Positions 12,496 to 50,821 of a stretch of 64,000 bases of DNA are shown here, in pieces. The notes under the pieces are model-generated. The model made no database searches. It saw nothing but the letters and a program-made list of their open reading frames with translations, and was not told the DNA's origin. Within the stretch, counting starts at the first letter, position 1. Each line of letters opens with the position of its first letter. The DNA comes from Opitutaceae bacterium TAV5 (GTDB lineage Bacteria; Verrucomicrobiota; Verrucomicrobiia; Opitutales; Opitutaceae): positions 372,001 to 436,000 of the forward strand of contig CP007053.1 of NCBI GenBank assembly GCA_000242935.3. The letters run 5' to 3'. A program made the translations under genes and the position numbers.

Positions 12496-12509
12496 CGTAA
12501 ATCGTTACG
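12496..12509. promoter_or_regulatory. Candidate operator CGTAA-N4-TTACG before the LacI gene of cassette A
   Basis: A perfect interrupted palindrome (CGTAA ATCG TTACG) ends 3 bases before the LacI start codon and lies in the divergent gap to the cassette A operon. Binding there would block translation or transcription start of the regulator. Only one copy was found, so this is a suggestion. Confidence 0.4.
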
Positions 12510-34142: not shown

Positions 34143-34169
34143 ACGCCCACCGGAGACAGAATTATCCGG

Positions 34170-34460
34170 ACCACAGATTTCACTGATTTCCACGGATAAG
34201 GATGCGGAAAGGAGGCCCACGAAACACACGAAATGACACGAAAGAAAATACTTGGGACCAACGACTCAAAGCTTCCGGATTTTCACACAAAGACCGCGAA
34301 GGGCGCAAAGGTTTGTTTTTCAGGAGCTTCGCGATCTCTGCGATCTTTGTGTAAATCACAAGCAGCAGGAACACCGGGTGTAATCCGGTGGATTGATTTT
34401 CGTGTCATTTCGTGTGTTTCGTGGGCATTTTGATCCGTGCCAATCCGTGCAATCTGTGGT
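34170..34460. repeat. Triple-nested inverted repeat between gmd and fcl
   Basis: Three pairs of arms lie inside each other. The outer pair is at 34170-34197 and 34433-34460 (ACCACAGATTTCACTG... and its complement). The middle pair, at 34215-34243 and 34398-34426, is a perfect 29-bp inverted repeat (CCACGAAACACACGAAAT core). The inner pair, at about 34281-34301 and 34330-34355, has the CACACAAAGACCGCGAAG type found in the composite repeats at 21028 and 54203. Nothing else occupies this gap. Confidence 0.9.
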
Positions 34461-34493
34461 TAAAAACTGACTACGACTCTTTTTAATTTCCCG

Positions 34494-35432
34494 ATGAAAA
34501 TCTACATTGCAGGTCACCACGGCATGGTCGGCGGCGCGCTCGTCCGGCGCTTCTCGCGCGAGGCCGGCGCCGAAATCGTCGTCCGCACCCGTCGCGAACT
34601 CGATCTCACCAGCCAGGCCGCCGTCGACGCCTTCTACGCCGAACAAAAACCCGACGTCGCCATCATCGCCGCCGCCAAGGTCGGCGGTATCCACGCCAAC
34701 AATACATATCCGGCCGGGTTTTTGTACGACAACCTCGCCATCGCCGCCAACACCCTTCACGGCGCGTACAAGGCCGGCGTAAAACGCGTGCTCTTCCTCG
34801 GCAGTTCCTGCATCTACCCCAAACACGCCCCGCAGCCGATGCCCGAGGACTGCCTCCTCACCGGCTCGCTCGAACCGACCAACGAAGCCTACGCCATCGC
34901 CAAGATCACCGGACTGAAACTCTGCCAGTACTACCGCAAACAGTACGGCGTGCTCTTCCATTCGGCGATGCCCACCAACCTCTACGGACCGGGCGACAAC
35001 TACCATCCGCAAAACTCGCACGTCCTCCCCGCGCTCATCCGCCGTTTTCACGAAGCGAAGGCCGCCGGCGCGCCCGAGGTCGTGGCCTGGGGCACGGGCA
35101 CACCCATGCGCGAGTTCCTGCACGTGGACGACCTCGCCGACGCCTGCGCCTTCCTCCTCGGCCTCGATAACCCGCCCGACTGGATCAACGTCGGCACCGG
35201 CGTGGATGTGACCATCCGCGAGCTCACCGAAACCGTCGCCTCGGTTGTCGGCTATGCGGGCAAGATCACCTGGGACCCGACCAAACCCGACGGCACCCCG
35301 CGCAAGCTCATGGATGTTTCCCGCCTCGCCGGTCTCGGCTGGCGCGCCGCCATCGACCTGCGCACCGGCATCGGGAAGACCTACGCCAGCTTCCTGACCG
35401 AACTCGCCTCCGGCCGCCTGCGGGCGGTGTGA
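34494..35432 (+). CDS. fcl: GDP-L-fucose synthase (3,5-epimerase/4-reductase)
   Basis: 312 residues. NADPH loop [15 protein letters not shown], the fucose-synthase stretch [23 protein letters not shown], active-site [14 protein letters not shown] with Tyr/Lys in [15 protein letters not shown], and [30 protein letters not shown] are diagnostic. It completes GDP-L-fucose from the gmd product, supplying fucose for surface glycans or exopolysaccharide. The start ATG at 34494 is well defined. No glycosyltransferase is adjacent. Confidence 0.97.
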
Positions 35433-35525: not shown

Positions 35526-37796
35526 TTACTCTTTGACTACGTCCACCGCGATGTCATCCAGCCCGGAGCCCGCGATCTCCAGTGAATCGGGCGCAGGGCC
35601 GACGGCCCGCTTGAAATCGACCCGCGTCCGGCCGATCCCTCTGTTTTCCAGGCGAAAGGCCCGCTGCGTCAAGGCCAGCGGCGGCAGGGTGGCGGTTAAC
35701 GGGAACCGGCCGGGTTCCGCGGCCGCCTCCGCCGGAGCCCCCGGCTGGCGGATCAGCAGTTTCCCGGCGTTGGCGCCGGATACCGCGCCCCGGTTCACCC
35801 GGACGGTCACCGCCTTCGGCCCTGTCGCCTGCAAACGTACGGTGGTCTGGCCGGCTGCATCGGTCCAGGTGACGGCTTCGACGCCGGGAGCGATTTCACG
35901 GATCGTGATTTTTACCGGATCGACCGGCGCTTCGCCGAATCGGTCAGCCCATCCGCCATCGGCGGGAACGGGTATCGGATTGAGCCGGTTTTCAACCAGA
36001 GCGCGCTGCGCGGCCGGAACCGTCTTTTCGAGGCGGTTTTTCTCCCATATCAGGATCGGGCTGTCCATCAGCGTGGCGCTATGGATCACATTGGGCAGGC
36101 CTTCGGGATCGGAGACGGGCACGGCCCAATGGTTGCGTCCGAATTTGGCAATGCCCACCGAGCCCTGCCAGTCACCCGTGAGGCCATAGTCGGGCAGTGC
36201 GCTGGAAAGAAACGCGCGCGCATCCTTCGGCTGCGGAGGGTAGAGGAAGGCCATCGTCGGCTTGTGCGCGAGCCAGCGGGTATCGGCCCGCGCCGCGCGC
36301 CCGAACGTCGCCAGCCACTCTTCCTGGCGAGGATCGTGCTGGAGATCGAAGACCGTCCAGTTGTTGTCGCCGACGCCGGCCTGCAAGCCGATGCCGAACA
36401 TGAAAACCCCCTTCGCCCCCATCTCCAGCAGGCGGTTCATGTCGTCGTGCAACTGCTGACGATTGCGGAAAACGATGTGCTTGTCGTGCCAGTGGATCGG
36501 ATTGCTTTCCGTGACCAGACTCCAGACCGGTTGCGGATTCTGCGCGACCTCGCCCCAGGTGGCGGCACCGTTGAAATAAGCGAGCTCTTCGCCCGTGCCG
36601 TAGGCCTCCATGCCGAGGCCGTCGATGCCGCGGGTACCGCGTTCGTTGACCCAGAGACGCGAGGACTGCCCATGGCGCTTGGCCACGATCGGCACGTCAA
36701 AGACGCTCCGGAAATGAGCCGTGACGGAAGCCACCCGGCGGCGCAGGAAGACTTCGCGAACCTCGCACATGTCGAGCCACATGCGGGAGCGGCTCATTTC
36801 AACGGCGAACGTTTTCCCGGTCGAGTCATTGACCACGTATCCGGCGTTCCACCACGAAGATTTCGCCTCTCCGCTGACGAGAGGGACGAGTTGCGCCGCC
36901 TCGGCGAAAGTATTGAGTGATGCCGGAGGCAAACCCCACGCGGAAATCAGAGCCGGCACCGTTTCGTAACGCTCTTGCATCCATGCGACAAAAGCCGCCC
37001 GCCATTCGTCGGATGTCGGCAGAAAATTACGTGGAGGGCCGTATTCGTTGGCAATGGGGTCGATGAGAAAGCGGAAGTTGGGTCCGGGCTTGAGTTGTTT
37101 GAGAAACTCGGTCCGGTGGGCGGGGTTTTCCATGATCCAGCGTTTGGTTCCGCTGCGGACGACAAATTTCACGTCCACGCCGCCGGGGTGCCGGTTTTTG
37201 ATTTCGACGGCGAACCCCTCTTTGCCGCCCTCGATGCGACCGGTCTTGATAAGCGAGCCACTCACCGTGCCGATGATGGCATACCAGGCCTGCAACGTTT
37301 CGTCGTCCTTGAGCGTTTCGGCGGCCTTGGGTTTGAACTCGACCTTGCCGGGAGTCTCGGAATGGACGAGGCCCTGGTCGGCGGAAATCAGGTAACCGGG
37401 TTCGAAGGTCTGGCTCGTGGAGGCAAGCTGAAGTCCATAGCGAAAACCGAGCGTCTCGAAAAGATCAAGGAGACGCTGGGTGTGTTCGACCGGACGACTC
37501 CAGACCGAGTTCAGGTACATGTCTTCGATGCCATGCTGGCGAGCGGTTTCCAGCATCTGGCGATCGAGTGCGAAATTGGCGTCGGTGGTGCGATAAAGAT
37601 AACGCGGGATGATCATCGCTCCAAACGGGATGTAGGGGGCGTCGTCCCAGATGAGAGTATTGTTCTCGTCGACATGCCACGCGTGGGCCTTGCCGTCGCG
37701 GTCGGTGTAAGTGCCGGCGGAGGCGGCGGAATTCGCGGAGGCGCCGGGAACGGCGCACAGGAGAAGAGCAAGAAGGGGGAGCAGGGCAGGTTTCAT
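35526..37796 (-). CDS. Secreted GH42-like glycosidase, stand-alone form (cassette C)
   Basis: 756 residues. Signal peptide (MKPALLPLLALLLCAVPGASA), then a TIM-barrel enzyme: YIPFGAMIIPRYL, LQLASTSQTFEPGY, FRFLIDPIANEYGPPRNFLP (Glu of NEY as acid/base candidate), VDGLGMEAYGTGEELAYFNG-type segment (here IDGLGMEAYGTG), and TESNPIHWHD (nucleophile candidate). The C-terminal part is beta-rich. It aligns along almost its whole length with the last 720 or so residues of the protein at 45195-48593. A clan GH-A enzyme near GH42 is the best description; the family is uncertain. An ACGTTAG operator lies 52 bases before its start codon. Confidence 0.8.
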   Translation of the reverse strand: MKPALLPLLALLLCAVPGASANSAASAGTYTDRDGKAHAWHVDENNTLIWDDAPYIPFGAMIIPRYLYRTTDANFALDRQMLETARQHGIEDMYLNSVWSRPVEHTQRLLDLFETLGFRYGLQLASTSQTFEPGYLISADQGLVHSETPGKVEFKPKAAETLKDDETLQAWYAIIGTVSGSLIKTGRIEGGKEGFAVEIKNRHPGGVDVKFVVRSGTKRWIMENPAHRTEFLKQLKPGPNFRFLIDPIANEYGPPRNFLPTSDEWRAAFVAWMQERYETVPALISAWGLPPASLNTFAEAAQLVPLVSGEAKSSWWNAGYVVNDSTGKTFAVEMSRSRMWLDMCEVREVFLRRRVASVTAHFRSVFDVPIVAKRHGQSSRLWVNERGTRGIDGLGMEAYGTGEELAYFNGAATWGEVAQNPQPVWSLVTESNPIHWHDKHIVFRNRQQLHDDMNRLLEMGAKGVFMFGIGLQAGVGDNNWTVFDLQHDPRQEEWLATFGRAARADTRWLAHKPTMAFLYPPQPKDARAFLSSALPDYGLTGDWQGSVGIAKFGRNHWAVPVSDPEGLPNVIHSATLMDSPILIWEKNRLEKTVPAAQRALVENRLNPIPVPADGGWADRFGEAPVDPVKITIREIAPGVEAVTWTDAAGQTTVRLQATGPKAVTVRVNRGAVSGANAGKLLIRQPGAPAEAAAEPGRFPLTATLPPLALTQRAFRLENRGIGRTRVDFKRAVGPAPDSLEIAGSGLDDIAVDVVKE

Positions 37797-37847: not shown

Positions 37848-37863
37848 ACGTTAGTCCTAACGT
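37848..37863. promoter_or_regulatory. LacI-type operator, site 1
   Basis: Perfect palindrome ACGTTAG TC CTAACGT upstream of the stand-alone glycosidase gene (starts 37796). It is one of four copies in cassette C. Confidence 0.85.
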
Positions 37864-37937
37864 AAATTTTGACTTTCCGTTCACGGAACCGATGAAAAGC
37901 ACTCCCTCTCCCGCACCCGGCGACACCGCGACCGGCT

Positions 37938-40430
37938 TCACTCATAAGCAGCAGTCGCCAGATCATGAACCCCATGTGCCCCATGGAGCCCGGAAAAAAC
38001 ACACGAAAACTCACCGGTCACAATACGAAGTTCTTCGCCTGGCAGGCGCACGCGGGCGGCCACGCCCGGCGGTAGCAGCAGGCTGGCGCGGATCGTGCCC
38101 GCGTCGCCGTTGAGGCCGCGTTCCCAGGTGGAGCGGATGAGACCGTGCGGCGTGGGCACCGCCACCTCGGCGTGGTCGCCGTGGAAAACCGGATGCCAAT
38201 CGATCTCCCGCCATGCGGGCGCAGTCTGCGTGATGCCGCCGAGCGTCCGCATGAGATGAAAAAGCGGATGTGCGGACCACGCATGCGAATGACTCTCCTC
38301 GCCACGCCGTGGAGAAAACAGCTCCCATGTCGTGCCGTGCTCCGCCATCGGGAGCCAGCGGTCCTTGATAAACGCAACCACCTCTTCGCCGTGACCGCGG
38401 CCGATGAGCAGCGAGAAGACGTAAGTGATCCAGTAGGCGGAGGGTATCGCCCTGGCAGCGGAAGCGGGGAGCCGTTCCTGCTCGCCGCGAATGAAGGGGA
38501 GCAGGATTTTCTCCAGGATGGCCTGCTCGTCGATCCCGTCGACCTCTTCCAGACCGGCGACAAGGGCGAGCGTCTGCGTGTGCAGGCTGGTGGTGGATAC
38601 GGATATTCCTTCCGTATCGAAACCGTCGCAAAGGAAACCCTCCTCCGTAACCAGAGGGCGGAGGGCATGGCGAAGCCGGGCAGCCCAGGCGTCGAGCGGC
38701 GCGGCCTCGTCCGGCAAACCGGCGTGACGGTGGAGAATGGCCAGTTTTTCGAGGGCGATGAGGAGCCAGAGATTATAAACGGCGGGGGAGCCTTCCTTGC
38801 CCAGCTCCGTCCAGTCGAGGAAGAGCCAGAAACGTTCGTCGTGCCGGAGGAGACCTGTCCGCGAGTCAGTGTGCTCCCGGAAATAGGCGAGAGCGCGCCG
38901 CACGGTTTCGCGATGCGTGGTCAGCGGCTCGGTGGAACCGGTCTGCCAATAATAGTCCCACAGCGTGAGAAACCAGATGAGCGTGAAATCGGGCAGGATG
39001 CAGCCATGAGCCATCGTCGGGGCGTGCCCGTAGGTGAGGCCGTCGGGCGTCGTCTGGTGCGCGATCTGGGCAATGCCGCGCCGGAAAAGGCGGGCATCGT
39101 CAACCAGATGAAACGTGTTCCAGGCCTGCACGCGCGCATCGCCCCACCACTGGGCCTGTTCGCGCCAGGGCGTGTCCACATAGGCATCGAGCGAACAGCA
39201 TTGCTGCGTCCAGGCGCAGGCTTCCCAAATGCGGTCAAGCGTGGCGTCGGAACTGAGGAAGCGGCCTGCGCGGCGGCTTTCGAGCGGGTAGCCGATCCAG
39301 TCGAGGCTGACTTCGATTTGCAGATCGTCCCTCAGCGCGTCGCGCACCGTGAGATCGAGATAACGAAAACCGTAGTGATGGAAAAACCGATACGTGAAAT
39401 CGCCGGCCCGGCAGACAAGCCGGTCGCCAAATGCCATCCGGCACCAGGTCGGGTCGTATTGGTCGATGGTGAGCGTATCGGCATCGATCGTCTCGCCGAG
39501 GTGCGTGTCGATGATCTCGCCGCCGCCGGCGCCGCGGATCGTCAGGACGAGGCTGCCCACAACGGTACGGCCAAAATCGAAAAGGAAGCTGCGATAACGT
39601 CCCGCCCCTCCCCCCCCCTCCCCCTGTGGTTTGCGCATTTCGCTGACCCTGTGCGAACGATCCTCGCCGCGCCGGAGGGCCACGACATCGCGCACATCGG
39701 GATAACCGGTGGCGCAAAGCCCTTCGCTACTGCCGAGCAGTGCAGCCGGGACGATGGAGCGTTCCACGAGTTGCGGGATGCCGCGCGGTTCCAGGGAAAA
39801 CCAGGGGGCGCAGTTCCAGCGAAGCGCCTCGGGCACGAGCCAGTCGCCGTCATCGAAATCGGGCGCAGTCCAGTCGGCGTTTCCAGAGGCATCGGCAGAC
39901 ACAGGCGCACTGCGCAGGTCAATATGCTCCTGCGGGAAAAGCTGGATGCTGGACGTGACGGTGTCGCGTGTGACGCCGGGCTGGCGAATGGTTTTCCAGG
40001 TCGTATCGCTGCCGATCACGACACCCGCGTCCTCCCAGCGGGCGGCGACGAGCAGGCCGGCAAAACCCTGGCTCACATACTGGAAGGTGCCGAAGCCCGG
40101 ATTCCAGGCGCGGACGGCGATCACGTTGCGCCCGGGTTGCAGATGCGCGGCGATGTCGATTTCGTCATAAGGCCACGACTCCTGATAGCCGCGCGCAGGT
40201 CCGCGGGCGACAAAGATACCATTGACGAAAAGGCGATAGGACTGATCGGCCGTGATAAACAGCGGAGCCTGCTCCGGGAGGGAAACGGAGCGCGCAGGCA
40301 ATTCGAAGACCTTGCGAAACAGGGCGTAGCCGTTGCGGATATCCCACTGATGATTTTCCGGCCAGATCCATCGCGCATGGCCGAAAATGCGAGCTTCACG
40401 AGCGGGACCGGTGACGGATTCGTTTGTCAT
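37938..40430 (-). CDS. Alpha-L-rhamnosidase-like enzyme, GH78 type
   Basis: 830 residues without signal peptide, so intracellular. It begins with beta-sandwich modules (ARWIWPENHQWDIRNGYALFRKVFELP, YRLFVNGIFVARGPARGY, DEIDIAAHLQPGRNVIAVRAWNPG) and goes on to an (alpha/alpha)6 barrel containing YVDTPWREQAQWWGDARVQ, the counterpart of the GH78 catalytic DxxxRxE...GD motif, and FWLFLDWTELGKEG. GH78 removes alpha-L-rhamnose from pectin fragments or glycosides. It follows the beta-strand/PEP-CTERM gene by 79 bases and is likely co-transcribed with it under operator site 2. It would process rhamnosides imported after outside cleavage. Confidence 0.87.
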   Translation of the reverse strand: MTNESVTGPAREARIFGHARWIWPENHQWDIRNGYALFRKVFELPARSVSLPEQAPLFITADQSYRLFVNGIFVARGPARGYQESWPYDEIDIAAHLQPGRNVIAVRAWNPGFGTFQYVSQGFAGLLVAARWEDAGVVIGSDTTWKTIRQPGVTRDTVTSSIQLFPQEHIDLRSAPVSADASGNADWTAPDFDDGDWLVPEALRWNCAPWFSLEPRGIPQLVERSIVPAALLGSSEGLCATGYPDVRDVVALRRGEDRSHRVSEMRKPQGEGGGGAGRYRSFLFDFGRTVVGSLVLTIRGAGGGEIIDTHLGETIDADTLTIDQYDPTWCRMAFGDRLVCRAGDFTYRFFHHYGFRYLDLTVRDALRDDLQIEVSLDWIGYPLESRRAGRFLSSDATLDRIWEACAWTQQCCSLDAYVDTPWREQAQWWGDARVQAWNTFHLVDDARLFRRGIAQIAHQTTPDGLTYGHAPTMAHGCILPDFTLIWFLTLWDYYWQTGSTEPLTTHRETVRRALAYFREHTDSRTGLLRHDERFWLFLDWTELGKEGSPAVYNLWLLIALEKLAILHRHAGLPDEAAPLDAWAARLRHALRPLVTEEGFLCDGFDTEGISVSTTSLHTQTLALVAGLEEVDGIDEQAILEKILLPFIRGEQERLPASAARAIPSAYWITYVFSLLIGRGHGEEVVAFIKDRWLPMAEHGTTWELFSPRRGEESHSHAWSAHPLFHLMRTLGGITQTAPAWREIDWHPVFHGDHAEVAVPTPHGLIRSTWERGLNGDAGTIRASLLLPPGVAARVRLPGEELRIVTGEFSCVFSGLHGAHGVHDLATAAYE

Positions 40431-40509
40431 TAATTACCAGATACAATTTGCCGCCACCCTTATTACATGGCGGCGGCAAATATTGGAGAGGAACAGGCAA
40501 ATGGACGGA

Positions 40510-41853
40510 TCAGGCTTCCCGGACCCCGCGGCGGCGATTGCGGATCATGCCGGCCGCGAGAAGCACAGCGCCACCGAGCAAGGCGATCGTGGTGGCAGGT
40601 TCGGGAATGGCATAAGAGTTGACGAGAATGCCGGTCGCTTCGCTGAACATCCAGTTGCCCCTCGTCCAGATACCGCTACCCGAGGCGGTCTCCGTGAAGC
40701 TGCCCCCGAGAATCGAAAGCGTGAAGCTGTCACCATAGGTCGAGGCCAGCGAGGTGGCGACGATTTGCCAGGAGCCGTCCCCGGTGGTGACGGCGGAGGC
40801 GTCGAGGTTGAAAGTCCCGTTGAAGGCGGCTTCTCCATCGCCGATCACCTGATTGCTGGCGGCATCGGTCAGATAGAAGGTCAGCGAACCGGTGTCGCCG
40901 AGCTCGAAGGTGGAGTTGGCGGCGATCGTGGTATTGCCACGATAGGTATTGGCACCGGTGAGCCGGAGGCCGCTGTCCGCAAGGGTCGCCAGCTTGCCGG
41001 CTCCGGAGATGACTCCGGAGATTTCCAGTGTGCGCCCGCTTTGCGTCGCCCCGGCGTTGAGAGTGGAGGTGGCGTTGCTGATGGCCACGTTGCCCGCCCA
41101 GATCGCGTTGGATGCTGTGCTGGAGGAGATGAGGTTCTCGGAACGATTGCCGTCCACCACCGTCAGGGAGTTTCCGGAAATGGTCAGTCCATTGATATCG
41201 AGCGTCCTCGCGGTAGTCCCTGCCTGATACCCGACAATCCGCACGCTGGTTCCGGTGCCCAGTGCATTTGCGTTGGTGAGCCTGACGGTGCCTCCCAAGT
41301 TGCTGCCGTTGCCGATCGAAATCTGAGTGCCAAAAGTGTTTGCCCCTCCAAGCACCAGCAACTCGCCGGCTCCCAGATTCATATTGGTCACGGCCGTCAC
41401 GATGTTTGAATTTATGGTCATGATGCCGGAGTCGGCCCGCACGCCCGCAGCAGTGGTGAGGGTCAGGGTGCCGCCTGAAAGCGTGTAATTGGCGACCGCG
41501 CTTGAAGCGTTTTGGTATTGCCGGACGCTGGCCGCGGTCACACCCGCCCCGTCGATGGTCACGGTGAAATCCCCGGCGGGAGTGCCGGCGGGTCCACTAC
41601 CGCCTCCGCCGCCAAACATGGCGCCGTCCGCATTGCTCGTCCAGGCAGTCCGCGCTGTCCCGGCAGAGGTGTCGGCGGTCCAGTTCACGTTTGTCTCATT
41701 CCAGACTCCGTCGCCGTTCTGCGCGCCGGCATCGTCTGACAAATCCCACACTTTAGTTGCCGCGCCGAGGGGAAGGGACATTACGGCAAGAGCAAACGCC
41801 AGCAGGCCGGAGGCAAGGGCGCGCGAAGCAGGACAGGTTTTTTCGGGTTTCAT
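40510..41853 (-). CDS. Autotransporter-type beta-strand protein with PEP-CTERM anchor (cassette C)
   Basis: 447 residues. Signal peptide (SGLLAFALAVMSLPLGAA), then beta-helix-like repeats with the passenger-associated strand pattern (GAGELLVLGGANTFGTQISIGNG, LRLTGANTYRGNTTIAANSTF), Gly/Thr/Asn-rich throughout. It ends with a PEP-CTERM tail: IPEPATTIALLGGAVLLAAG then RNRRR. The same beta-strand module, without the tail, is the N-terminus of the large protein at 45195-48593. The start at 41853 places the signal peptide correctly; an upstream start at 41940 would fall on the operator. Operator site 2 lies 86 bases upstream. Confidence 0.87.
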   Translation of the reverse strand: MKPEKTCPASRALASGLLAFALAVMSLPLGAATKVWDLSDDAGAQNGDGVWNETNVNWTADTSAGTARTAWTSNADGAMFGGGGGSGPAGTPAGDFTVTIDGAGVTAASVRQYQNASSAVANYTLSGGTLTLTTAAGVRADSGIMTINSNIVTAVTNMNLGAGELLVLGGANTFGTQISIGNGSNLGGTVRLTNANALGTGTSVRIVGYQAGTTARTLDINGLTISGNSLTVVDGNRSENLISSSTASNAIWAGNVAISNATSTLNAGATQSGRTLEISGVISGAGKLATLADSGLRLTGANTYRGNTTIAANSTFELGDTGSLTFYLTDAASNQVIGDGEAAFNGTFNLDASAVTTGDGSWQIVATSLASTYGDSFTLSILGGSFTETASGSGIWTRGNWMFSEATGILVNSYAIPEPATTIALLGGAVLLAAGMIRNRRRGVREA

Positions 41854-41938
41854 GATCGGATCGGATTCAGGGTTGTTGCAGACGGGTGAAGAGGTATCGA
41901 GAATCTCCCGACAGCTCCCTCCGCTCGAATCCTTTTTC

Positions 41939-41954
41939 ACGTTAGCCCTAACGT
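41939..41954. promoter_or_regulatory. LacI-type operator, site 2
   Basis: Perfect palindrome ACGTTAG CC CTAACGT. It overlaps the TAG stop codon of the lacI gene and lies upstream of the beta-strand/PEP-CTERM gene and the rhamnosidase gene. Confidence 0.87.
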
Positions 41955-42988
41955 GCCCGTTTCCGGACTTTCGCCTTGCGGGCCGTCGTGCCGTCCACCC
42001 AGTAACCTCGTGTCATCACCGTCTTGGGCTCCCTGGGCACGCCGTGCTCGTTATGATGGATCTGCTCGATGACGAGCTCCACCGCGGTGCTCCCGATCAG
42101 AAGGTTGTTCTGGTTGATGCCGGAATACCACGCGTGGTTGCTTTGCAGGTTGAGGCTGGCCAGCCCGACGTCGGCAGGAGCGCGCAGCCCCATGCCGCGC
42201 ATCCAGTCGCGTACGATCGGATGCAGCGTGAGCACCACGTCGGGCTCCCATTCCCGGAACCACTCGGCAAACCCTTCCTCGTGATCGTCGCTCCAGAAAA
42301 ACACCGGGATGCGCCTCACCGTGGGCAGCAGCGGAAAAAACGACATGAAACCGCCGGCCAGACGGTTTTCCGAGTGGTCGTTGTCCTCATGCCGGATCGC
42401 CATCCCGATACGTTGGTAACCGCGCGCCGTCAATGACTCCACCGCCAGGCTGACCGCGTGGAAATGATCGTTCACCGCCCGGTGCAACGACACGCTCTTG
42501 TAGGAGTAACCGATGGACGCGCAGGCAAACCCCGACCAGTCGAACTCCAGCTCCGGCGCATGCAGCGGCAACGGATCGAGGATCACACCGGGGATGCCGC
42601 GTGCGCGCAGCATGCCGCGCATCCGCGCCGGCGTCATTCCCGACTCCGCGAGTGAAAACCGTTCCAGCTTGTAGCCCAGAGCCGCCGCCCGGTCCGCCGC
42701 GCCCTTGTAGAGCTCCCCCAAAAACGACCAGCGCTCGAAAATCTCCTCGGCGTGATTGGTGAGGAACGCAAGGGTCGGCGCACTCTTGGACATCCTGGCA
42801 CTGCGCAACTGGGCCATCAGGGCCGAAACCAGCGGATTGGGCCGGTAACCGAGCTCGTCCGCGATCTTCCGGATACGGGCGCACGTCACTGGCGGAATGC
42901 TCGGATGATTCTTGAGCGCGCGGGATACGGTCATGAGCGAAACGCCGGCGCGTGTCGCTATTGTCTGCATGGTTGGAGCTTCTGGCAT
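41948..42988 (-). CDS. LacI-family transcriptional regulator (cassette C)
   Basis: 346 residues. DNA-binding head MQTIATRAGVSLMTVSRALKNHPSI with hinge LGYRPNPLVSALMAQ, then a sugar-binding-protein-like core ending ...TAVELVIEQIHHNEHG and GYWVDGTTARK. It is a paralogue of the regulator at 12513. The four identical-type palindromes in this region (one in front of this gene itself) make it the likely repressor of all cassette C units, with negative autoregulation. The start at 42988 leaves the usual six residues before the helix-turn-helix. Its last codons overlap operator site 2. Confidence 0.92.
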   Translation of the reverse strand: MPEAPTMQTIATRAGVSLMTVSRALKNHPSIPPVTCARIRKIADELGYRPNPLVSALMAQLRSARMSKSAPTLAFLTNHAEEIFERWSFLGELYKGAADRAAALGYKLERFSLAESGMTPARMRGMLRARGIPGVILDPLPLHAPELEFDWSGFACASIGYSYKSVSLHRAVNDHFHAVSLAVESLTARGYQRIGMAIRHEDNDHSENRLAGGFMSFFPLLPTVRRIPVFFWSDDHEEGFAEWFREWEPDVVLTLHPIVRDWMRGMGLRAPADVGLASLNLQSNHAWYSGINQNNLLIGSTAVELVIEQIHHNEHGVPREPKTVMTRGYWVDGTTARKAKVRKRAR

Positions 42989-43034
42989 GGCGGCAGGTGA
43001 TTGGGCGGAAAGATACGCCTGGGGCGTCGTTTTT

Positions 43035-43050
43035 ACGTTAGGAATAACGT
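43035..43050. promoter_or_regulatory. LacI-type operator, site 3
   Basis: ACGTTAG GA ATAACGT, one mismatch from a perfect palindrome. It sits between lacI (starts 42988, minus) and the divergent secreted-protein/pseudopilin pair (starts 43154, plus), so it can control both. Confidence 0.8.
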
Positions 43051-43153
43051 GAAAAAGGAATGGCGAGTGAACAAGCCCTGATCAACGTATTTTGCAACAA
43101 GTCACCCGGCCTCGCTCCCCTTTTTTTCATCCATCCCCTGTCATCCGCCTGTC

Positions 43154-43813
43154 ATGTCATCCTCCCGCCATCTCCTCCTCCGAATACTGCCCGTTCTTGC
43201 GCTCGCTCCGATCCTGAGCGCGGTCGCGCACGCCGACGCCCTCCTGGTAGAGGATCCTCTCAATGCCGACTCCGGCTGGATGCTGGCGGGAGCGCCGGCC
43301 ATCCGGTTCCGGACGGATCCGGCAAAGCCTTCACCCACCCCGAGTCCCGATTCGTATATCGTCGCCTGGAACGGCGAGAGGAAGCCTCTCGTTCGCGGCG
43401 TCGTGAAATACTTCGACGATGTAAAACTCCAGCCCGGGACCTGGGTGGTTTCATTTTATGTCGGCCATGCCGAAAACCGCCCGTTCCCGGAAAACATAGA
43501 AACCGTGCAACTGCTCGCCGACAGCAATGGCGATTACAAACCCGGCGCCTGGTTCGACTACACCGAGCGCGTCGTCAATGGCGTCACCGTGCAGGCCGCA
43601 AACACGCCTCCCGAAAAGGGTCAATGGACGAAATGGACCTGCACTTTCACGGTGGCCTCCGGCGCCAGAACTGCCGGCGGTCGCCCGGCCATCGGGAAAA
43701 CCCTCGGTTTCATGTTCATGACCCGGCTTCCTCCCAATCACGGCTTCCTCTTCGACCACCTCACCGTCCGGTTCACTCCGGCAGATGCATCCGGAACCGC
43801 CGGTACTCCCTGA
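43154..43813 (+). CDS. Secreted protein of unknown function (cassette C)
   Basis: 219 residues with a signal peptide (LLLRILPVLALAPILSAVAHA). The body looks like a single beta-sandwich module: LLVEDPLNADSGWMLAG, VVKYFDDVKLQPGTWVVSFYVGH, NIETVQLLADSNGD, KWTCTFTVASGAR, TLGFMFMTRLPPNHGFLFDHLTVRF. That pattern is common to carbohydrate-binding modules. No catalytic motif and no PEP-CTERM tail. It is followed 18 bases later by the pseudopilin gene, paralleling cassette B. Operator site 3 lies 104 bases upstream. Confidence 0.75.
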   Translation: MSSSRHLLLRILPVLALAPILSAVAHADALLVEDPLNADSGWMLAGAPAIRFRTDPAKPSPTPSPDSYIVAWNGERKPLVRGVVKYFDDVKLQPGTWVVSFYVGHAENRPFPENIETVQLLADSNGDYKPGAWFDYTERVVNGVTVQAANTPPEKGQWTKWTCTFTVASGARTAGGRPAIGKTLGFMFMTRLPPNHGFLFDHLTVRFTPADASGTAGTP

Positions 43814-43831
43814 CCAATTCAAAACCTCCCC

Positions 43832-44542
43832 ATGAAAATCACATCGACTCGCCCTGCCACCACCAGCGCCCGCAACGGGTTCACGCTGATCGAGCTCCTC
43901 ACCGTCATCGCCATCATCGGCATCCTCGCCGGGATTCTGATCCCCGTGGTCGGCAAGGTGAGAAAAACCGCAAGGACCGCGCAGTGCGCCAGCAACATGC
44001 GGCAGATCGCCAGCGCCGTCCTCATTTATGCCACCGGAAACAGGGACGAGCTGCCCGATTTCCGCAACCCGCCCAACAACCGGAATCGCTGGGACTACGT
44101 CGCCCTGCGCGCCGTCAAGGAAATCGCCCAAAGCACGGACGTGCCCGCCTACTCCACATTGATCCACTGTCCCTCCGACGACCGGCCTCTCGAGGGGAAG
44201 CCGCGTTCCTACGGTTACAATCCGTTTTTGCTTTCAAATAATCGCGACAAGACAGGCCCGGCTCCGGTCGCCGCCTCGCAGACGACCGGACAGTCCGGTA
44301 TCAGACTTTCCGATATTTCCACACCTTCGCAGATGGCCATGCTGATGGAGAAAGCCACCGGAGGAGGCACTCCGCCCACGTCCTTCAATGTGTATCCCAA
44401 CGATACCTGGCTCTGGCAGGACAGCATTATCGATTCACACGATGGTTTTTCCAATGTCGCTTTTTGCGACGGAAGCGTTCGTCGGATTCCGATCAGTTTG
44501 CTCGGGAACGAATTTCGGAATCGTTATGTTTACAGGAAATAA
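43832..44542 (+). CDS. Pseudopilin-like protein, H-X9-DG class (cassette C)
   Basis: 236 residues. The leader ends before FTLIELLTVIAIIGILAGIL (Glu5). The C-terminal motif HDGFSNVAFCDGSVRRI is an exact H-X9-DG. Conserved Cys positions (QCASNMRQIASAV, IHCPSDDRP) match the other two pseudopilins. One such protein occurs in each of the three cassettes. It is likely processed by prepilin peptidase; whether it joins a secretion pseudopilus or stays as a membrane-anchored binding protein is unknown. Confidence 0.9.
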   Translation: MKITSTRPATTSARNGFTLIELLTVIAIIGILAGILIPVVGKVRKTARTAQCASNMRQIASAVLIYATGNRDELPDFRNPPNNRNRWDYVALRAVKEIAQSTDVPAYSTLIHCPSDDRPLEGKPRSYGYNPFLLSNNRDKTGPAPVAASQTTGQSGIRLSDISTPSQMAMLMEKATGGGTPPTSFNVYPNDTWLWQDSIIDSHDGFSNVAFCDGSVRRIPISLLGNEFRNRYVYRK

Positions 44543-45194
44543 CGCCCCGGATCATATCCCTTCGGTTTGTACCCGAATAGTGCCTCCAATCTTCCTGTCT
44601 GTCGGCTGACGGTCGTCCGCTCGCCTACACCGCGGCACGCGCCCCGATGGCCAGCGCCTCGGGCACGCGGAGAGGGCGATCTTCCCGGAGCTCGCCAAGC
44701 GCTACTCCTGCCGGAAAGCCGTCAGCCCTGTGTGTACCGTAAATCACCGCACTGACCAAGTGGCCGCCTGCACTCGTATCTGATTTCTTACGACATGAGG
44801 CCATTGCGTTTTACCGCGCACCCTCCGCGCAGGCACCCTGGCGAAAGGAGCCTCCTCCGGCGCTTCCAGCGGGATTGCCGCGATCATGATCAACCCTGAC
44901 GGCGACAACACCCGCGTCGTTTCTCCCGGGACCCATACCCGTCTCGCGTCCGCCAATACCAGGCATCCCCTTTCCCGGGCCGCCATCACGTCCACCGCGA
45001 TCCTCGCGGTGCAGCGCGAAGTTGCCTGCACTCGCGCCGGAGCCCAGCACTCCCTCCCGGACCCGGCGCGACGTGCCGGCTCATCGGCAGCGCGCCGGAG
45101 CCGCCGCAACCCCAACCGGCCGGCAAAGGCGTACGCGCGAAGGTGCCCGTTCCTTCACCGCCGGTACCGGAATCCAGAGGGAGCCGGCGGTGGA
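44543..45194. other. Gene-poor region, possibly gene debris
   Basis: About 650 bases between the pseudopilin gene and the large fused glycosidase (convergent). No intact gene recognised. The minus strand retains protein-like stretches in more than one frame (see 44625-45115). No strong repeat was noticed. Confidence 0.6.
44625..45115 (-). pseudogene. Possible remnant of an unidentified gene
   Basis: On the minus strand one frame (about 45115-44744) reads coherently in part (VDVMAARERGCLVLADARRV, RVLSPSGLIMIAAIPLE), and another frame then continues with IYGTHRADGFPAGVALGELR and LRVPEALAIGARAAV before a TAG at 44625-44627. A frameshifted, decayed enzyme gene would look like this, but the family is not recognised and chance open frames in high-GC DNA cannot be excluded. 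A 59-residue ORF from ATG 44804 is the alternative reading of the last part. Confidence 0.35.
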
Positions 45195-48100
45195 TCAGAG
45201 TTGTTCCACCACCAGATCGGCCGGGGCGATTCCGATAACCTCCGCCGCTTCAGGGGAAGGACCCACAACCTCGGAGAACTCCACGCGGGTGCGTCCCATC
45301 GCGACGTTTTCGAGGATAAAATCCTTCAACTCCAGTTCGGCTGCGGGAAGTTCGATCGTCACGGGCAGGGTGACTACCGACGGTGCACTTTCGCCCGGTT
45401 GCTGCACCCGCACTTCGCCCTGGGCAACGGCGGTGCTGCTGATGCGGATGGTCACCGCCCCGGTGTTCTTCGCCATCAGGCGTATTTGTGTGCGGCCTTC
45501 CGCATCCGTCCATGTCACGGCCTGGACATCCGTCGCCACATCGGAGACGGAGACTGGCACAGGCGTCGCCGGAGCGGAGGAGAACGACGACGACCACGCC
45601 GCTGGCACCGTGATCGGGTTCGCCTTCACGTTGGCCACTGCACGATCCGTCGCCGGCACAAAACCGAGCAGCGCTGCCTCGCGGGCGAGTATCGGACTGT
45701 CGAGGACAGTCTGGCTGTGCAGCACGAAAGGCAATCCGTCGGGATCGAACACCGGCGCCGCCCAGTGTGAACTCCCGAACCGGGCGATGCCCGTGGTACC
45801 GCTCCAGTATCCGCTCAGGCCGTAATCCGGCAGCGATTGCAGGAGGAAGGCGCTCGCCTCGCGATTGCGAACCGGGAATACGTGGGCGAGCCGTGGCCGG
45901 ACGCCGAGCCAGTCGTCACGCCGGGCGCGTGCGGCGCGGCCGAAAGTCGCCAGCCATTCCATCTGCCGCGGGTCGTGCTGGAGATCGAAAATGGTCCAGT
46001 TGTAGTCCGTGTTGCTGGAGCTCAGACCGATCCCGAACATAAAAACGCCTCGCGATCCCATCTGGAGCAGCCGGTTCAGATCCGCGTACATGGTCGTGCG
46101 CTGCTGGTAGGCGATCCAGGTGTTGGACCACTCCGAGGCATTGTATTCGGTGGTCAGGCACCAGATCGGCGCCGGGTTTTGCTCGACGTCGGCATACGTG
46201 GCCACGCCATTGTAGTAGGCGAGCTTCGTACCCGTGCCATAGGTTTCCATCCCCAGTCCGTCGAGGCCGCGCACGCCGGGATCGTTGATATAGACGCGGG
46301 AAGACTCGCCGTGCCGCTTGGCCACAATCGGCACGTCGACTACCGCTCGCAGCGCCGCGCACACCGCGGCCACGCGCTGGCGAAGGAAATCGTCGCGCGC
46401 CTCGCACATGTCCAGCCACATACGGGAAACCGACATGTCCACCGGATGGAGCGTGCCGGTGTCGTCGCTGATGGCATAGCCGTCCTCGACCCAGGATGAC
46501 GTCGTTTCCCCGCTGAACAGGGGCACGAGCACCGCCGCCTCGCCAAAGCTGGCCACCGAAGACGGATCCAGCCCCCACGCATCGCGCAGAGCGGTGATGC
46601 CCGGGTAACGGCCCGCAAGCCACGTGGCGAATGCCGTCCGCCATACGGATGACGACGGGAGAAAATTCCGGGGTGCGGGGTATTCGTTGGAAACGGGATC
46701 GACGAGAAACCGGAAATTCGGCCCGAGGTTGACTGTCTGCAAAAAGGCCACCTGGGCAGCCGGATCAGCGACGATCCAGCGCTTCGTGCCGGACCGGATC
46801 GCGAACTTCACCTGCGCCCCGCCCGCCGGCACCGTTGCCACGTTGACAACGAAACCGGTGTTGTCGGCCGTAATCCCGCCCGAGTCGATGACTGCGCCGG
46901 TAGCCGTTTCCACCACCACATACCAGGCATCCATCGTTTCCCCGGTCGGCAAGGCGGTGACGGCCGACGGCGCGTAAGTGACCGGGCCCGGCGCCGTCAC
47001 GGTGATCACACTGCCGGCAGCACCCACGGCATAACCGGGTTCGGCCGTGGTGGCGGTCTGCGCCAGTTGCAGCCCGTAGTGGAATCCCGATTCCTCGAAC
47101 AAGGCGATGATCCGGTTGGTTCTCGCCACCGAGCCGGCCCAGACGGAATTGAGGTAAATGTCCTCGACGCCATGCGCGCGCGCCGCCTGGAGGATGCGCA
47201 CGTCGTCCTGGTAAGCGCCCTCGCTGCCGTGGCGAAGATAGCGTGAAATGAATTGTCCGCCGAACGGAATGTAGGGCTCGCCTTCCCAGATGAGCGTGTG
47301 GTTCCGGTCCACGCTCCACGGATGCGGGTTGCCGTCACCGTCAATATACACGCCGACGGAACCGCCGCGGCTGAGGAGGCCGGTGCTTTCGACAAACGTC
47401 CAGCCATCGCAGGTCCACACGCCATCGGTGGTTTCCGTGAAGTCCGCTCCGGGAGAGCCTGCGAGCGAAAGGCCGAAGTGCGGTCCGTAAGACGCGGCCA
47501 CCGTCGCATCCACGAGTTGCCAGCCCCCGCCGGCCGGACTGGCGCCGGAAACATCAATGACAAAACGCCCGTCAAAAACAGCCGTGCCGCTGCCCGTAAC
47601 GAGGCCGGAGTTCCGGCCCGCCAGGGCAAAGGTCAACGAACCGGTTTCGACCAAGGTGAGCGTGCCGTTTTCACCGAGGATGGTATTGCCGGTGTACGTG
47701 TTGGCGCCGGAGAGAACGAGATGCCCATTCCCGGGAACACCGAGTTTGCCCGGGCCGGAGATCACGCCGGAAATTTCCAGCGACCGCCCGGCCGCCATCG
47801 CGCCCGCGTCGAGAAGCGAACTGACGCTGTTGAGCGTGACGTTGCCGGTGAGGACCGCGTCCGTGGCCGGATGCGAGGAGACCAGCCTGGCGCTTCTGCC
47901 GCTGTCGACATAGATCCGGTTCGGGACGGTCAGGCCGTTGATGTCGAGCGTTTGTCCGCTGCTCGACACCATCCGCACCGTGCTGCTGCCGAGTGCGCCC
48001 GGATTGGCGAGCTTCACGACGCCGGTCAGACCGGTGCCGTTGCCGAGTGAAACCTGTGCGCCCAATGTGTTGCTTCCGGTCAGCAGCAACGTGGCGCCGG

Positions 48101-48593
48101 CAGCGGCGCTGAGGTTCATGTTCGTCACCGCCGTGGTGATGGCTGCATCGATGGTCAGCGTGCCGCGGTCCACGCGCACGCCTCCTGCATGCGTCAGCGC
48201 CAGCGACCCTCCCTGGATGACAAAGTCGGCGGCAGCGCTTCCCTCCAACTGGAGTTGCCGGACATTGTACGCGCTCACGCCGGCGGCATCGACGGTCACG
48301 GTAAAGGTGCCGGCCGGAGAACCGGCGAGCTGCGCATTCCGGCCGCCGCCGAACCAGGCAATCTTGCCGCTGGTCCAGACCACGGGCGCGGTACCGTCGG
48401 AGCCGTCCACCGACCAGTTGGCGGCAGCACCACTCCAGTTGCCATCGGCATTTTGCGCGCCGACGGTGGTGGCGGTATCCCAGACAAATTCCCCGTCGGC
48501 GAGGAGCGATGCCGGGGCGAACAAAAATCCGGTCAGTGACAGGACTGCAAAAATGCCGCGAACGGCATGTGGCAGGGTTTTCGGGTCTTTCAT
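45195..48593 (-). CDS. Giant secreted protein: beta-strand module fused to GH42-like glycosidase (cassette C)
   Basis: 1132 residues. Signal peptide (GIFAVLSLTGFLFAPASLLA). Residues about 35-410 match the beta-strand protein at 40510 (TVDAAGVSAYNVRQLQ, ITTAVTNMNLSAAAGATLLL, LVLSGANTYTGNTILGENGTL). From about 420 the sequence becomes the same glycosidase as at 35526: NHTLIWEGEPYIPFGGQFISRYL, FRFLVDPVSNEYPAPRNFLP (acid/base Glu candidate), LDGLGMETYGTGTKLAYYNG, TEYNASEW (nucleophile candidate). There is no PEP-CTERM tail. Two separate genes elsewhere in the cassette thus appear here as one polypeptide, suggesting the beta-strand domain presents the enzyme on the surface. The start at 48593 is chosen for the signal peptide. 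Operator site 4 is 91 bases upstream. Confidence 0.85.
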   Translation of the reverse strand: MKDPKTLPHAVRGIFAVLSLTGFLFAPASLLADGEFVWDTATTVGAQNADGNWSGAAANWSVDGSDGTAPVVWTSGKIAWFGGGRNAQLAGSPAGTFTVTVDAAGVSAYNVRQLQLEGSAAADFVIQGGSLALTHAGGVRVDRGTLTIDAAITTAVTNMNLSAAAGATLLLTGSNTLGAQVSLGNGTGLTGVVKLANPGALGSSTVRMVSSSGQTLDINGLTVPNRIYVDSGRSARLVSSHPATDAVLTGNVTLNSVSSLLDAGAMAAGRSLEISGVISGPGKLGVPGNGHLVLSGANTYTGNTILGENGTLTLVETGSLTFALAGRNSGLVTGSGTAVFDGRFVIDVSGASPAGGGWQLVDATVAASYGPHFGLSLAGSPGADFTETTDGVWTCDGWTFVESTGLLSRGGSVGVYIDGDGNPHPWSVDRNHTLIWEGEPYIPFGGQFISRYLRHGSEGAYQDDVRILQAARAHGVEDIYLNSVWAGSVARTNRIIALFEESGFHYGLQLAQTATTAEPGYAVGAAGSVITVTAPGPVTYAPSAVTALPTGETMDAWYVVVETATGAVIDSGGITADNTGFVVNVATVPAGGAQVKFAIRSGTKRWIVADPAAQVAFLQTVNLGPNFRFLVDPVSNEYPAPRNFLPSSSVWRTAFATWLAGRYPGITALRDAWGLDPSSVASFGEAAVLVPLFSGETTSSWVEDGYAISDDTGTLHPVDMSVSRMWLDMCEARDDFLRQRVAAVCAALRAVVDVPIVAKRHGESSRVYINDPGVRGLDGLGMETYGTGTKLAYYNGVATYADVEQNPAPIWCLTTEYNASEWSNTWIAYQQRTTMYADLNRLLQMGSRGVFMFGIGLSSSNTDYNWTIFDLQHDPRQMEWLATFGRAARARRDDWLGVRPRLAHVFPVRNREASAFLLQSLPDYGLSGYWSGTTGIARFGSSHWAAPVFDPDGLPFVLHSQTVLDSPILAREAALLGFVPATDRAVANVKANPITVPAAWSSSFSSAPATPVPVSVSDVATDVQAVTWTDAEGRTQIRLMAKNTGAVTIRISSTAVAQGEVRVQQPGESAPSVVTLPVTIELPAAELELKDFILENVAMGRTRVEFSEVVGPSPEAAEVIGIAPADLVVEQL

Positions 48594-48683
48594 GGGTTTT
48601 TCAGGGTTCCGGGGCGGAAGCGGAAGAAAATCGAGTCGATCACGAAAATCCCGCGTCACCGTGATCGTCTCCACACCTTTTTA

Positions 48684-48699
48684 ACGTTAGCCCTAACGT
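48684..48699. promoter_or_regulatory. LacI-type operator, site 4
   Basis: Perfect palindrome ACGTTAG CC CTAACGT, identical to site 2, upstream of the fused beta-strand/glycosidase gene. Confidence 0.87.
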
Positions 48700-48766
48700 C
48701 GAAACCACCGCGAGGCCGCGCAACGAACGGATAGCAAGGAACCCGGCCTCCCGCCTCTTCCTGGTA

Positions 48767-48814
48767 CCCGGGACAGGGATCGAACCTGCACGCCTTGCGG
48801 CAAGGGCTTCTAAG
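48767..48814 (-). repeat. Partial tRNA-Leu copy: probable attachment-site duplicate
   Basis: 48 bases identical to 50743-50790, i.e. the part of tRNA-Leu running from the anticodon loop to the 3' acceptor stem. Identity stops abruptly at 48814 inside the anticodon loop. This is the footprint of integration at the 3' end of a tRNA gene. The DNA between the copies would be the element. Confidence 0.85.
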
Positions 48815-49056
48815 GTCGTAATTTAGGTAATTAACCCACTTAAACCAACCCAAACCCAATAAGACTAACACTTGCCCATTAGAAGGTTAAGAAAGACGAA
48901 AAGAATCTTCGATTTTTCTTTCTCGACCCCATTTTTGCCCTTTTTTTGAGTCCGAGTATAGAAGGGAGTATAGAAATGTATCCATAAATAGGATACTTAA
49001 TATCCTGTTCGGCGAGTTCCTTTCTCGCCACTCCGAAAACATGACTCCCGGGCGTC

Positions 49057-50631
49057 TCATCCTTCGGCATCTTCTACCCCACCCTGTCCCGGGCGAGGCT
49101 TAAAAACGTCCCCGTAAGCCGCCTCGATTTGAGCAACCTCCGAATCCGTCAATTCCCTGAACCGCTGTTTGCGTTTGTTGCTGGAGAGCGCGCCTCCGTT
49201 TTCATGCACCCTGGACAGCAAGTCCGCCAGGCGGGCGTCCGGCATGTCCACCACCTGCTTCGCTTTTCGCCAAAGCTCGTCGTAGCTCACCAGGAAGTTC
49301 ACTTCCTCCGGCACCATCTGCACCGCCTTGTCCATCGCCCGCCCCAGATACTCGACCTGGGGCGTCAGGTCGGGATAACGCCAGACCCACGCCGCTTCGT
49401 CCGGGTTGGTGACCGCAAGCGCACCGCCATCCGCAAGCGTGTAACGGGCAACCTCCCCCACCACGGTCGAATATGCCTCCAGTGTCCGATCATACGCCGC
49501 CATGTCCTCCAGAATCGCGGCCGACACCGGCAATGCCATGCCGCCCGGCACCACGCCCCGTCGCACCAGCGTATCGTGAATCAGAAACCGATGAATGCGC
49601 CCGTTTCCATCCTCGAACGGGTGATGAAACACGAAGCCGAATGCCGCCACCGTCGCCTGCGCCACCGGCTCGGCAACCGCCAGCCGGGCCGCGGCGCTGG
49701 CCAGACCGGCCATCAACTCCGGCAACAAAGCCGGCGGCGGACTCACGTAGTGCACCACCGGCTCCCATCGCACATTGCCGCCCACGTAATTCTGGTTGGT
49801 GCGAAAGCCCTCCGCCGCATAACGCGGATCGACGATCACCCGCTGCAATTGCGTCAGCCTCGCCTCGGAAAGCGTCTCCTCGACCGACAACCGCCCCGCC
49901 TGCTCCAGCGTGGCGATGAAACGCTGCACGCGTTCCACGGATGGCGCCTCCCGCTCGATCTCGAAAGACGACCTGGTTTCCTTGCGATAAAGATACTGCA
50001 ACGCGCGCTTGAGCAGTCCGGAGCTTTCGCCTCCACCCACCGCTCGCGCCACCTCTCCCGCCCAATCGCGCGTCAACGCCGCTTGCGCCAGCGGCGTCCG
50101 CTCAATGGTCGGACTGTAGTCGCGACCGCCCAGCAAATTGTCCTCCACCTTCCAGCGAACCACCCGTTGTGGAGCGCCGGTCACCATGCGCGTCTCATCC
50201 AGAAGCGGAACATATTTGCCCCCGATGGCCTGCGCGTCCGGCAGCAGGCCGATGATCTCCCGGCCGGTCAGCAACTCATAGAGATACCCGATCCGGCGAG
50301 CATACGCCCCGGTCGGCGACGCCGCCACGTAGGACGCAACCACCCCGGGCTCTATCCGGGCAAAGGTCTCCGCCAGCAACCCCAGGTGCACCGTCTCATG
50401 CTTCATCGCGAACGCGACATGACCCAGCATGCCGTCGCCTGCCTCCGGAGCATAAATCAAAGGTAAAGTTCGCTCGATCCGCAGCACGCCACGATCATCT
50501 TCGGTGACTTCGCGGTCCCGCGCTCCCGCCACGCAGGTTCTCCGGCGCAGAATCGTGTCGGGGGCGCCCACAAAACGCGCCAACGCCAGGTTTCCGACCT
50601 CCTGTCGGGATTCTTTTTCAGCAATGGCCAT
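49057..50631 (-). CDS. Fic-domain protein
   Basis: 524 residues. The AMP-transferase motif is intact: HPFEDGNGRIHRFLIH (about residue 340), with the catalytic His and the nucleotide-binding GNGR. The N-terminal 200 residues are helical (MKHETVHLGLLAETFARIEP, TGAYARRIGYLYELLTG) and the C-terminus is helical and charged. Fic proteins transfer AMP or related groups to targets, acting as toxins, regulators or effectors. No inhibitory antitoxin gene (short protein with S/TxxxE/DG) is adjacent; an inhibitory helix could be internal. The start is ATG at 50631; the TTG further upstream is unlikely. It is the only clear gene of the tRNA-flanked element. Confidence 0.9.
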   Translation of the reverse strand: MAIAEKESRQEVGNLALARFVGAPDTILRRRTCVAGARDREVTEDDRGVLRIERTLPLIYAPEAGDGMLGHVAFAMKHETVHLGLLAETFARIEPGVVASYVAASPTGAYARRIGYLYELLTGREIIGLLPDAQAIGGKYVPLLDETRMVTGAPQRVVRWKVEDNLLGGRDYSPTIERTPLAQAALTRDWAGEVARAVGGGESSGLLKRALQYLYRKETRSSFEIEREAPSVERVQRFIATLEQAGRLSVEETLSEARLTQLQRVIVDPRYAAEGFRTNQNYVGGNVRWEPVVHYVSPPPALLPELMAGLASAAARLAVAEPVAQATVAAFGFVFHHPFEDGNGRIHRFLIHDTLVRRGVVPGGMALPVSAAILEDMAAYDRTLEAYSTVVGEVARYTLADGGALAVTNPDEAAWVWRYPDLTPQVEYLGRAMDKAVQMVPEEVNFLVSYDELWRKAKQVVDMPDARLADLLSRVHENGGALSSNKRKQRFRELTDSEVAQIEAAYGDVFKPRPGQGGVEDAEG

Positions 50632-50637
50632 GCGTCG

Positions 50638-50698
50638 AAAAACGATCAGAATCGCCAATTTTCAATTAAAATTGGCCACCTCCGTCCAAAAACGATCA
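50638..50698. promoter_or_regulatory. Palindrome and direct repeats upstream of the Fic gene
   Basis: A perfect 9-bp inverted repeat, GCCAATTTT (CAATT) AAAATTGGC, at 50654-50676, is bracketed by direct copies of AAAAACGATCA at 50638-50648 and 50688-50698, 50 bases apart. It is located just before the Fic start and is a candidate operator or promoter region. Confidence 0.6.
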
Positions 50699-50740
50699 AT
50701 TCGACAATGCTCTTTCCGAGGCGGTGGGGGGGGGAGGGGG

Positions 50741-50821
50741 TGCCCGGGACAGGGATCGAACCTGCACGCCTTGCGGCAAGGGCTTCTAAGACCCTCGTGT
50801 CTGCCATTCCACCACCCGGGC
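50741..50821 (-). tRNA. tRNA-Leu, anticodon UAG
   Basis: On the minus strand the acceptor stem GCCCGGG pairs with CCCGGGC. The anticodon stem AGGGT/GCCCT encloses the loop CTTAGAA (anticodon TAG), the long variable arm TGCCGCAAGGCG marks a class II tRNA, and GGTTCGATCC is the T loop. The discriminator is A, and CCA does not appear to be fully encoded. The 3' part is duplicated at 48767-48814. Confidence 0.92.

Follow-up and report, generated by a model that had tools for sequence, protein, structure and literature searches.

Herein, we analysed a stretch of 64,000 nucleotides from Opitutaceae bacterium TAV5 (contig CP007053.1, positions 372,001 to 436,000; hereafter the window, in which genes and sites are numbered from the first letter). 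The window very probably carries a local, autoregulated LacI-family regulon, in which the regulator encoded at 41948-42988 on the minus strand is predicted to read near-identical 16-bp operators at four promoter regions of a single gene cassette. The initial annotation had held that such a regulon, including its autoregulation, can be read from the DNA, and this reading is supported by the exclusiveness of the sites, their conservation in Geminisphaera colitermitum TAV2 and the recognition residues of the protein.

The motif ACGTTAGNNCTAACGT was found exactly at 37848, 41939 and 48684 and with one mismatch at 43035, which are the four sites listed in the initial annotation. None of them has a strand. 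Operator 1 (37848-37863, ACGTTAGTCCTAACGT) is a palindrome located 51 bp upstream of the gene for a stand-alone glycosidase-like protein. Operator 2 (41939-41954, ACGTTAGCCCTAACGT) lies 85 bp upstream of a gene for a PEP-CTERM protein and overlaps the 3' end of lacI, so that the TAG of the operator is the lacI stop codon. Operator 3 (43035-43050, ACGTTAGGAATAACGT), the copy with the mismatch, is placed between lacI and a divergent secreted-protein/pseudopilin pair, with upstream distances of 46 bp for the lacI start and 103 bp for that of the secreted-protein gene, and operator 4 (48684-48699, ACGTTAGCCCTAACGT) is found 90 bp upstream of a fused gene. All five starts are thus preceded by an operator at 46-103 bp, in agreement with the proposal that each site lies upstream of a cassette unit.

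The exclusiveness of the motif was assessed by scanning the window and the whole TAV5 genome (7,417,673 bases in two contigs, contig 1 comprising 7,317,842 bases), with the motif read backwards as the control pattern. Within the window, 0.65 matches with at most three mismatches were expected, and none of 100 shuffles reached four. Genome-wide, a scan allowing two mismatches returned just these four places, all in the cassette, and not one site with two mismatches, which excludes a motif that is frequent and randomly placed. Exact genome matches numbered three for the motif and zero for the control, and the inner 12-mer GTTAGNNCTAAC likewise had three exact matches, all in the cassette (control, one). 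The window contains 11 perfect 7+2+7 palindromes, and ACGTTAGNNCTAACGT is the sole family among them with more than two copies. Among 150 genomes sampled from the family, TAV5 and TAV2 were the only two with exact motif matches.

Following the LacI family, from which dimer binding, repression and induction are carried over, a homodimer of the 41948-42988 protein would bind the 16-bp palindrome at the four promoter regions. The bound protein would repress the stand-alone glycosidase, PEP-CTERM/rhamnosidase, secreted-protein/pseudopilin and fused-gene units together with its own gene, operator 3 being the predicted autoregulatory site for lacI, and the repression would be relieved by a sugar that probably comes from the target glycan. 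Activation by the bound protein, or repression by looping between sites, is unlikely: four sites across 10.8 kb would permit looping and the distances of 46-103 bp fit either sign of regulation, but most characterised LacI proteins are repressors.

Conservation of the operators in TAV2

TAV2 was the sole other genome of the same genus that was compared, and its cassette lies in a stretch of 22.6 kb. The encoded proteins are 77% (glycosidase), 70% (rhamnosidase), 73% (PEP-CTERM protein), 75-76% (LacI) and 48% (pseudopilin) identical to those of TAV5. The operator is kept at all three shared intergenic places, exactly upstream of the PEP-CTERM gene (the place of operator 2) and between lacI and the pseudopilin gene (the place of operator 3), and with one mismatch upstream of the glycosidase gene, where operator 1 stands in TAV5. 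A fourth TAV2 match, with two mismatches and on a different contig, is probably due to chance (control, 7 matches). Operator 4 has no TAV2 counterpart; since a second close glycosidase copy is missing from TAV2, the fused gene appears, so far as the comparison shows, to be peculiar to TAV5. The 22.6-kb stretch yielded no homolog of the small secreted protein.

The DNA surrounding the conserved sites was compared between the two genomes. Upstream of the PEP-CTERM gene, the operator is held in an identical 24-bp block; the DNA preceding this block is unalignable, and the alignment is good from the operator through to the start. Identical columns in the three intergenic regions numbered 128 of 244, 73 of 216 and 114 of 253, and the other two regions are more diverged than that of the PEP-CTERM gene, yet the operator is retained in them. 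Outside the genus, a metagenome-assembled genome encodes a LacI protein with 57% identity, and an imperfect palindrome, ACGTTACCCGTAGCGT, is found there 54 bp before the start of the match.

Recognition residues and operator bases

Base and residue trends were counted in the 200-bp promoters of 148 TAV5 LacI genes (at least 150 genes match PF00356; two without sequence coverage were left out). Arg20 goes with G at -6 in 14 of 53 genes, as against 3 of 62 with Leu/Met20 (p = 0.0012), and Leu/Met20 goes with T at -6 in 21 of 62 genes, as against 8 of 53 with Arg20 (p = 0.017). Half-site word enrichment by residue class, with p-values uncorrected for multiple tests, was used solely for rule discovery. 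The resulting rule assigns base -6 as G for Arg20 and T for Leu/Met/Tyr20, and bases -5 to -3 as TTA for Met16, TAT for Gln15-Ala16 and CAT for Gln15-Ser/Thr16, or otherwise as TAA for Ala16 and CAA for Ser/Thr16. Another candidate pairing, His at residue 25 with C at -7, was rejected (TAV5 half-sites, p = 0.013; out-of-sample sets, with one His25 site each, p = 0.48 and 1.0).

In TAV5, the training genome, the predicted palindrome was found upstream of 22 of the 108 LacI genes for which the rule makes a prediction (40/148 were excluded), with a shuffled mean of 2.74. The rule was applied unchanged to two sets from other genomes, made up of the loci of the 30 highest-ranking matches in each genome and 28 other-genome loci and thus not covering all LacI genes there. 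Loci with no clear helix-turn-helix, a short promoter or a duplicate were dropped (7/88 in set 1 and 5/60 in set 2), as were those with no rule prediction (14/81 and 10/55). The predicted palindrome was found in 10/67 and 5/45 cases (shuffled means, 1.48 and 0.84), and none of 5000 shuffles reached the observed count in either set.

The regulator of the cassette has Leu15, Met16 and Arg20, for which the rule predicts GTTA, as in the operators; this gene is among the 108 of the training set. The G at -6 would correspond to Arg20 and the TTA at -5 to -3 to Met16, which together yield GTTA, and the Arg20/G pairing is indeed found here, LMTVSR going with acGTTAG. The protein also stood out when the palindromes of each of the 148 LacI genes were compared with those of foreign neighbourhoods. 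For fifteen LacI genes, a palindrome repeated in the gene's own neighbourhood outperformed all 143-147 foreign neighbourhoods (11 upstream and 7 downstream, about one per zone being expected by chance). LacI 41948-42988 is among these 15 and beats the foreign neighbourhoods both upstream and downstream; most LacI genes had no second palindrome copy by this strict test. A second LacI gene of the window, 12513-13577 (residues IA + TVSR), is directly preceded at 12495-12509 by the palindrome CCGTAAATCGTTACG, in agreement with its rule prediction, GTAA.

Close paralogs of the regulator were examined for sites of their own. The paralog at genome position 3321665 is 63% identical over query residues 4-233, with identical residues 15, 16 and 20, and its candidate site GTGCTAGTCCTAACAC has GTG outer bases instead of ACG (GTG-type site, GTGCTAGNNCTAACAC; core CTAGNNCTAA versus TTAGNNCTAA). 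Its probable ortholog in TAV2 (L178) keeps GTGCTAGCCCTAACAC, including the outer-base difference. With one mismatch, this pattern has one genome match, before the paralog's own gene; with two mismatches, a single match stands roughly 60 bp ahead of a different LacI gene (control, 11). As for other close paralogs, 6113704 has one partial site and 3535874 none that is clear.

Given at least 150 LacI genes in the genome, some of which share residues 15, 16 and 20 with the regulator, the palindromes might be sites of a regulator encoded elsewhere, either a LacI paralog or a protein of a different family, with the cassette's LacI as an incidental neighbour. We regard this as decidedly unlikely, since no site with up to two mismatches lies outside the cassette, the sites flank lacI in TAV5 and its ortholog in TAV2, and the closest same-residue paralog has different outer bases of its own. 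It is scarcely credible that the palindromes represent repeats, terminator hairpins or ends of a mobile element: they are near-identical and one overlaps a stop codon, but there are no copies elsewhere in the genome, they are placed 46-103 bp from starts, and the target-gene side of the operator has a conserved A-rich run, not a T-run, in all seven sites of TAV5 and TAV2.

Several observations weigh against a local regulon read by this LacI protein. At up to two mismatches, the backwards control had 9 genome matches per strand, compared with 4 for the motif; loose matches are thus expected by chance, and it is the exact copies and where they lie that carry the argument. The palindrome of operator 3 is broken at one position. 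Of the pair that the initial annotation had placed under operator 2, the PEP-CTERM gene has the site upstream of it and the rhamnosidase gene (37938-40430) has no operator of its own; control of the latter was deduced because it lies 79 bp behind the PEP-CTERM gene. The conservation is based on two genomes of one genus and one imperfect site in a metagenome-assembled genome. With respect to the rule, its recall was low out of sample, at least partly because perfect inner palindromes alone were counted; it was derived from TAV5 promoters before being tested elsewhere, and at least one out-of-sample match (L205) has the same site as a TAV5 LacI.

Genes of the cassette and neighbouring DNA

The presence of a LacI gene in the middle of the cassette was borne out by two Pfam models. 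Its 346-aa product has an N-terminal helix-turn-helix (PF00356, 53.5 bits; cut-off 27), with LMTVSR as residues 15-20 and the hinge NPLVSALM, and a C-terminal periplasmic-binding-protein-like ligand domain (PF13377, 32.8 bits; cut-off 26.5). Downstream on the same strand, the gene at 40510-41853 (minus) encodes a beta-strand-repeat PEP-CTERM protein of 447 aa (TIGR02595, 18.5 bits, cut-off 16; TIGR02601, 17.8 bits, below the cut-off of 19.85), and it is probably co-transcribed with the rhamnosidase gene, also on the minus strand. The latter encodes an alpha-L-rhamnosidase, GH78-type by its Pfam domains (PF17389, 92.3 bits; PF17390, 38.6 bits). On the plus strand, 43154-43813 encodes the small secreted protein (219 aa, without a match to a family of Pfam or NCBIfam), and 43832-44542 the pseudopilin-like protein, which has the N-methylation motif PF07963, the DUF1559 domain PF07596 and TIGR02532.

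The stand-alone glycosidase-like protein (35526-37796, minus strand, 756 aa) starts at ATG 37796, instead of the start at 37838 in the list of open reading frames. No Pfam or NCBIfam family matched it above cut-off. A profile of the protein matched a GH42-type beta-galactosidase in the PDB (E = 0.0031), over just 44 residues around the invariant Asn250-Glu251, and the GH42-like nature of the cassette's glycosidases is to be taken as a lead, short of a family assignment. A structure model was rejected as a source for the fold, being built on 3 sequences and too poor for use (mean predicted local distance difference test score, 44). The glycosidase family was present in 3 of the 150 family genomes, in one of these at just E = 6.8e-4.

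In the fused gene (45195-48593, minus strand, ATG 48593), two paralogous sequences are joined, one of the PEP-CTERM protein (47.6% identity) and one of the glycosidase (50.7%); a PEP-CTERM tail was not found. From these similarities, it looks like the product of an in-genome duplication and fusion within the cassette that carried the same operator along. Among the seven cassette proteins, Pfam domains revealed no transporter or sugar-catabolic gene and, at E 0.01, no domain of the SusC/SusD pair that marks Bacteroidetes-type polysaccharide utilisation loci. The designation as a polysaccharide cassette is apt, if loose, for a set of one GH78-type rhamnosidase, two copies of a divergent GH42-like protein, and surface and pilin-like proteins.

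Beside operator 4, the 3' part of a tRNA-Leu gene (50739-50821) is repeated, with 48 identical bases at 48767-48814 and 50743-50790. The repeat is reminiscent of an attachment site belonging to a small integrated element, with a Fic-domain gene (49057-50658) lying in between, and the tRNA-Arg annotated at 48762-48855 is probably spurious and due to the tRNA-Leu remnant. On the other side of the cassette and outside the regulon, a RhuM-family gene (31285-32307; PF13310, 361 bits) adjoins nucleotide-sugar genes at 33126-35432, namely a GDP-mannose dehydratase and an epimerase.

Operator centre, LacI paralogs and known regulons

PurR-type operators are 16 bp long, with outer ACG...CGT and a central CG. 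The operators described here have the same length and outer bases and a different core, and their central pair was not CG in any of the seven sites of TAV5 and TAV2. The regulator has Leu54, with Val at position 51, and thereby departs from the classic combination of Ala51-Leu54 and central CG. In the RegPrecise collection, the consensus has a central CG in 1173 of 1303 transcription factors, 49 being different and 29 degenerate, so that 78/1303 are without CG (PMC4052901).

The relation between hinge and centre was assessed with candidate sites up to 150 bp upstream of LacI genes. For Val/Leu/Ile/Met51 hinges, central CG was found in 5 of 87 sites (82/87 without), many of which are likely chance palindromes, which weakens the comparison. 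In this first set, central CG occurred in 5/11 sites of classic Ala51-Leu54 hinges and 8/106 of all others (p = 0.0024). In a fresh set the counts were 0/3 and 1/15, so that the low CG of the other hinges held and the contrast was not confirmed. Chance palindromes in the same stretches have central CG in 14%, which indicates that the non-classic hinge group is without a preference for CG. The absence of central CG from the present operators may be connected with the residue at hinge position 51, Val where the classic hinge has Ala. A hinge-to-spacer rule (N48-type, NNCG; D48-type, NCWN) was rejected, as it gave 15/26 and 13/26 in the defining set and 2/4 and 0/4 in the fresh one.

TAV5, which comes from a termite hindgut (PMC4358385), has at least 150 LacI genes above the Pfam cut-off. 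PF00356 matches numbered 71, 48, 52 and 43 in four other family genomes (G134, G046, G133 and G122, respectively), and the lineage averages in the RegPrecise collection are at most 32 (PMC4052901). Residues 15, 16 and 20 occur in 101 combinations among the 148 TAV5 proteins. Of the 231 pairs formed by the 22 rule-supported sites, 10 differ at two or fewer of the 12 outer positions; the predicted separation of the LacI sites is good, though incomplete. It is conceivable, and we propose it tentatively, that TAV5 and its relatives maintain a natural library comprising far more than a hundred LacI repressors, each with a private and largely distinct operator. An extended code would govern their recognition (residues 15, 16 and 20, with Leu/Met20 going with T at -6), and the prevailing hinge type, Val/Leu/Ile/Met51, would have given up the central CG used by the rest of the family, the present regulon being the clearest example. 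Our confidence in this library is lowered because the CG contrast of Ala51 hinges was not repeated in the fresh set. Among the titles and the beginnings of abstracts listed, none dealt with an expansion of LacI genes or with their operators in Verrucomicrobia, and the term 'LacI' was not found in the main text of two TAV5 papers.

As a regulon, the present system is ordinary. Nearly 90% of the LacI transcription factors in the RegPrecise collection are local, with more than 75% of sites 30-140 bp upstream (PMC4052901), and the TAV5 regulon resembles these local regulons of sugar utilisation in its even 16-bp palindrome, its distances of 46-103 bp and the place of the regulator inside its own regulon. 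It is less ordinary in its uncommon operator centre, without central CG, and in the number of LacI genes of its host, at least 150. The LacI code of Camas, Alm and Poyatos (2010) is limited to the TVSR group (PMC2978694). The TAV5 rule is like it in linking residues 15 and 16 with bases -5 and -4 and Arg20 with G at -6, and in the logic of local regulation, and unlike it in linking Leu/Met20 with T at -6 and in the usual absence of central CG.

Collectively, the findings describe a single cell in which LacI paralogs, at least 150 in number, need to avoid one another's sites. The missing central CG raises the question of how DNA is recognised by the hinge helix of these proteins. With the recognition rule, operators in other family genomes can be predicted from the sequence of the protein, and the rule could supply orthogonal repressor-operator pairs.

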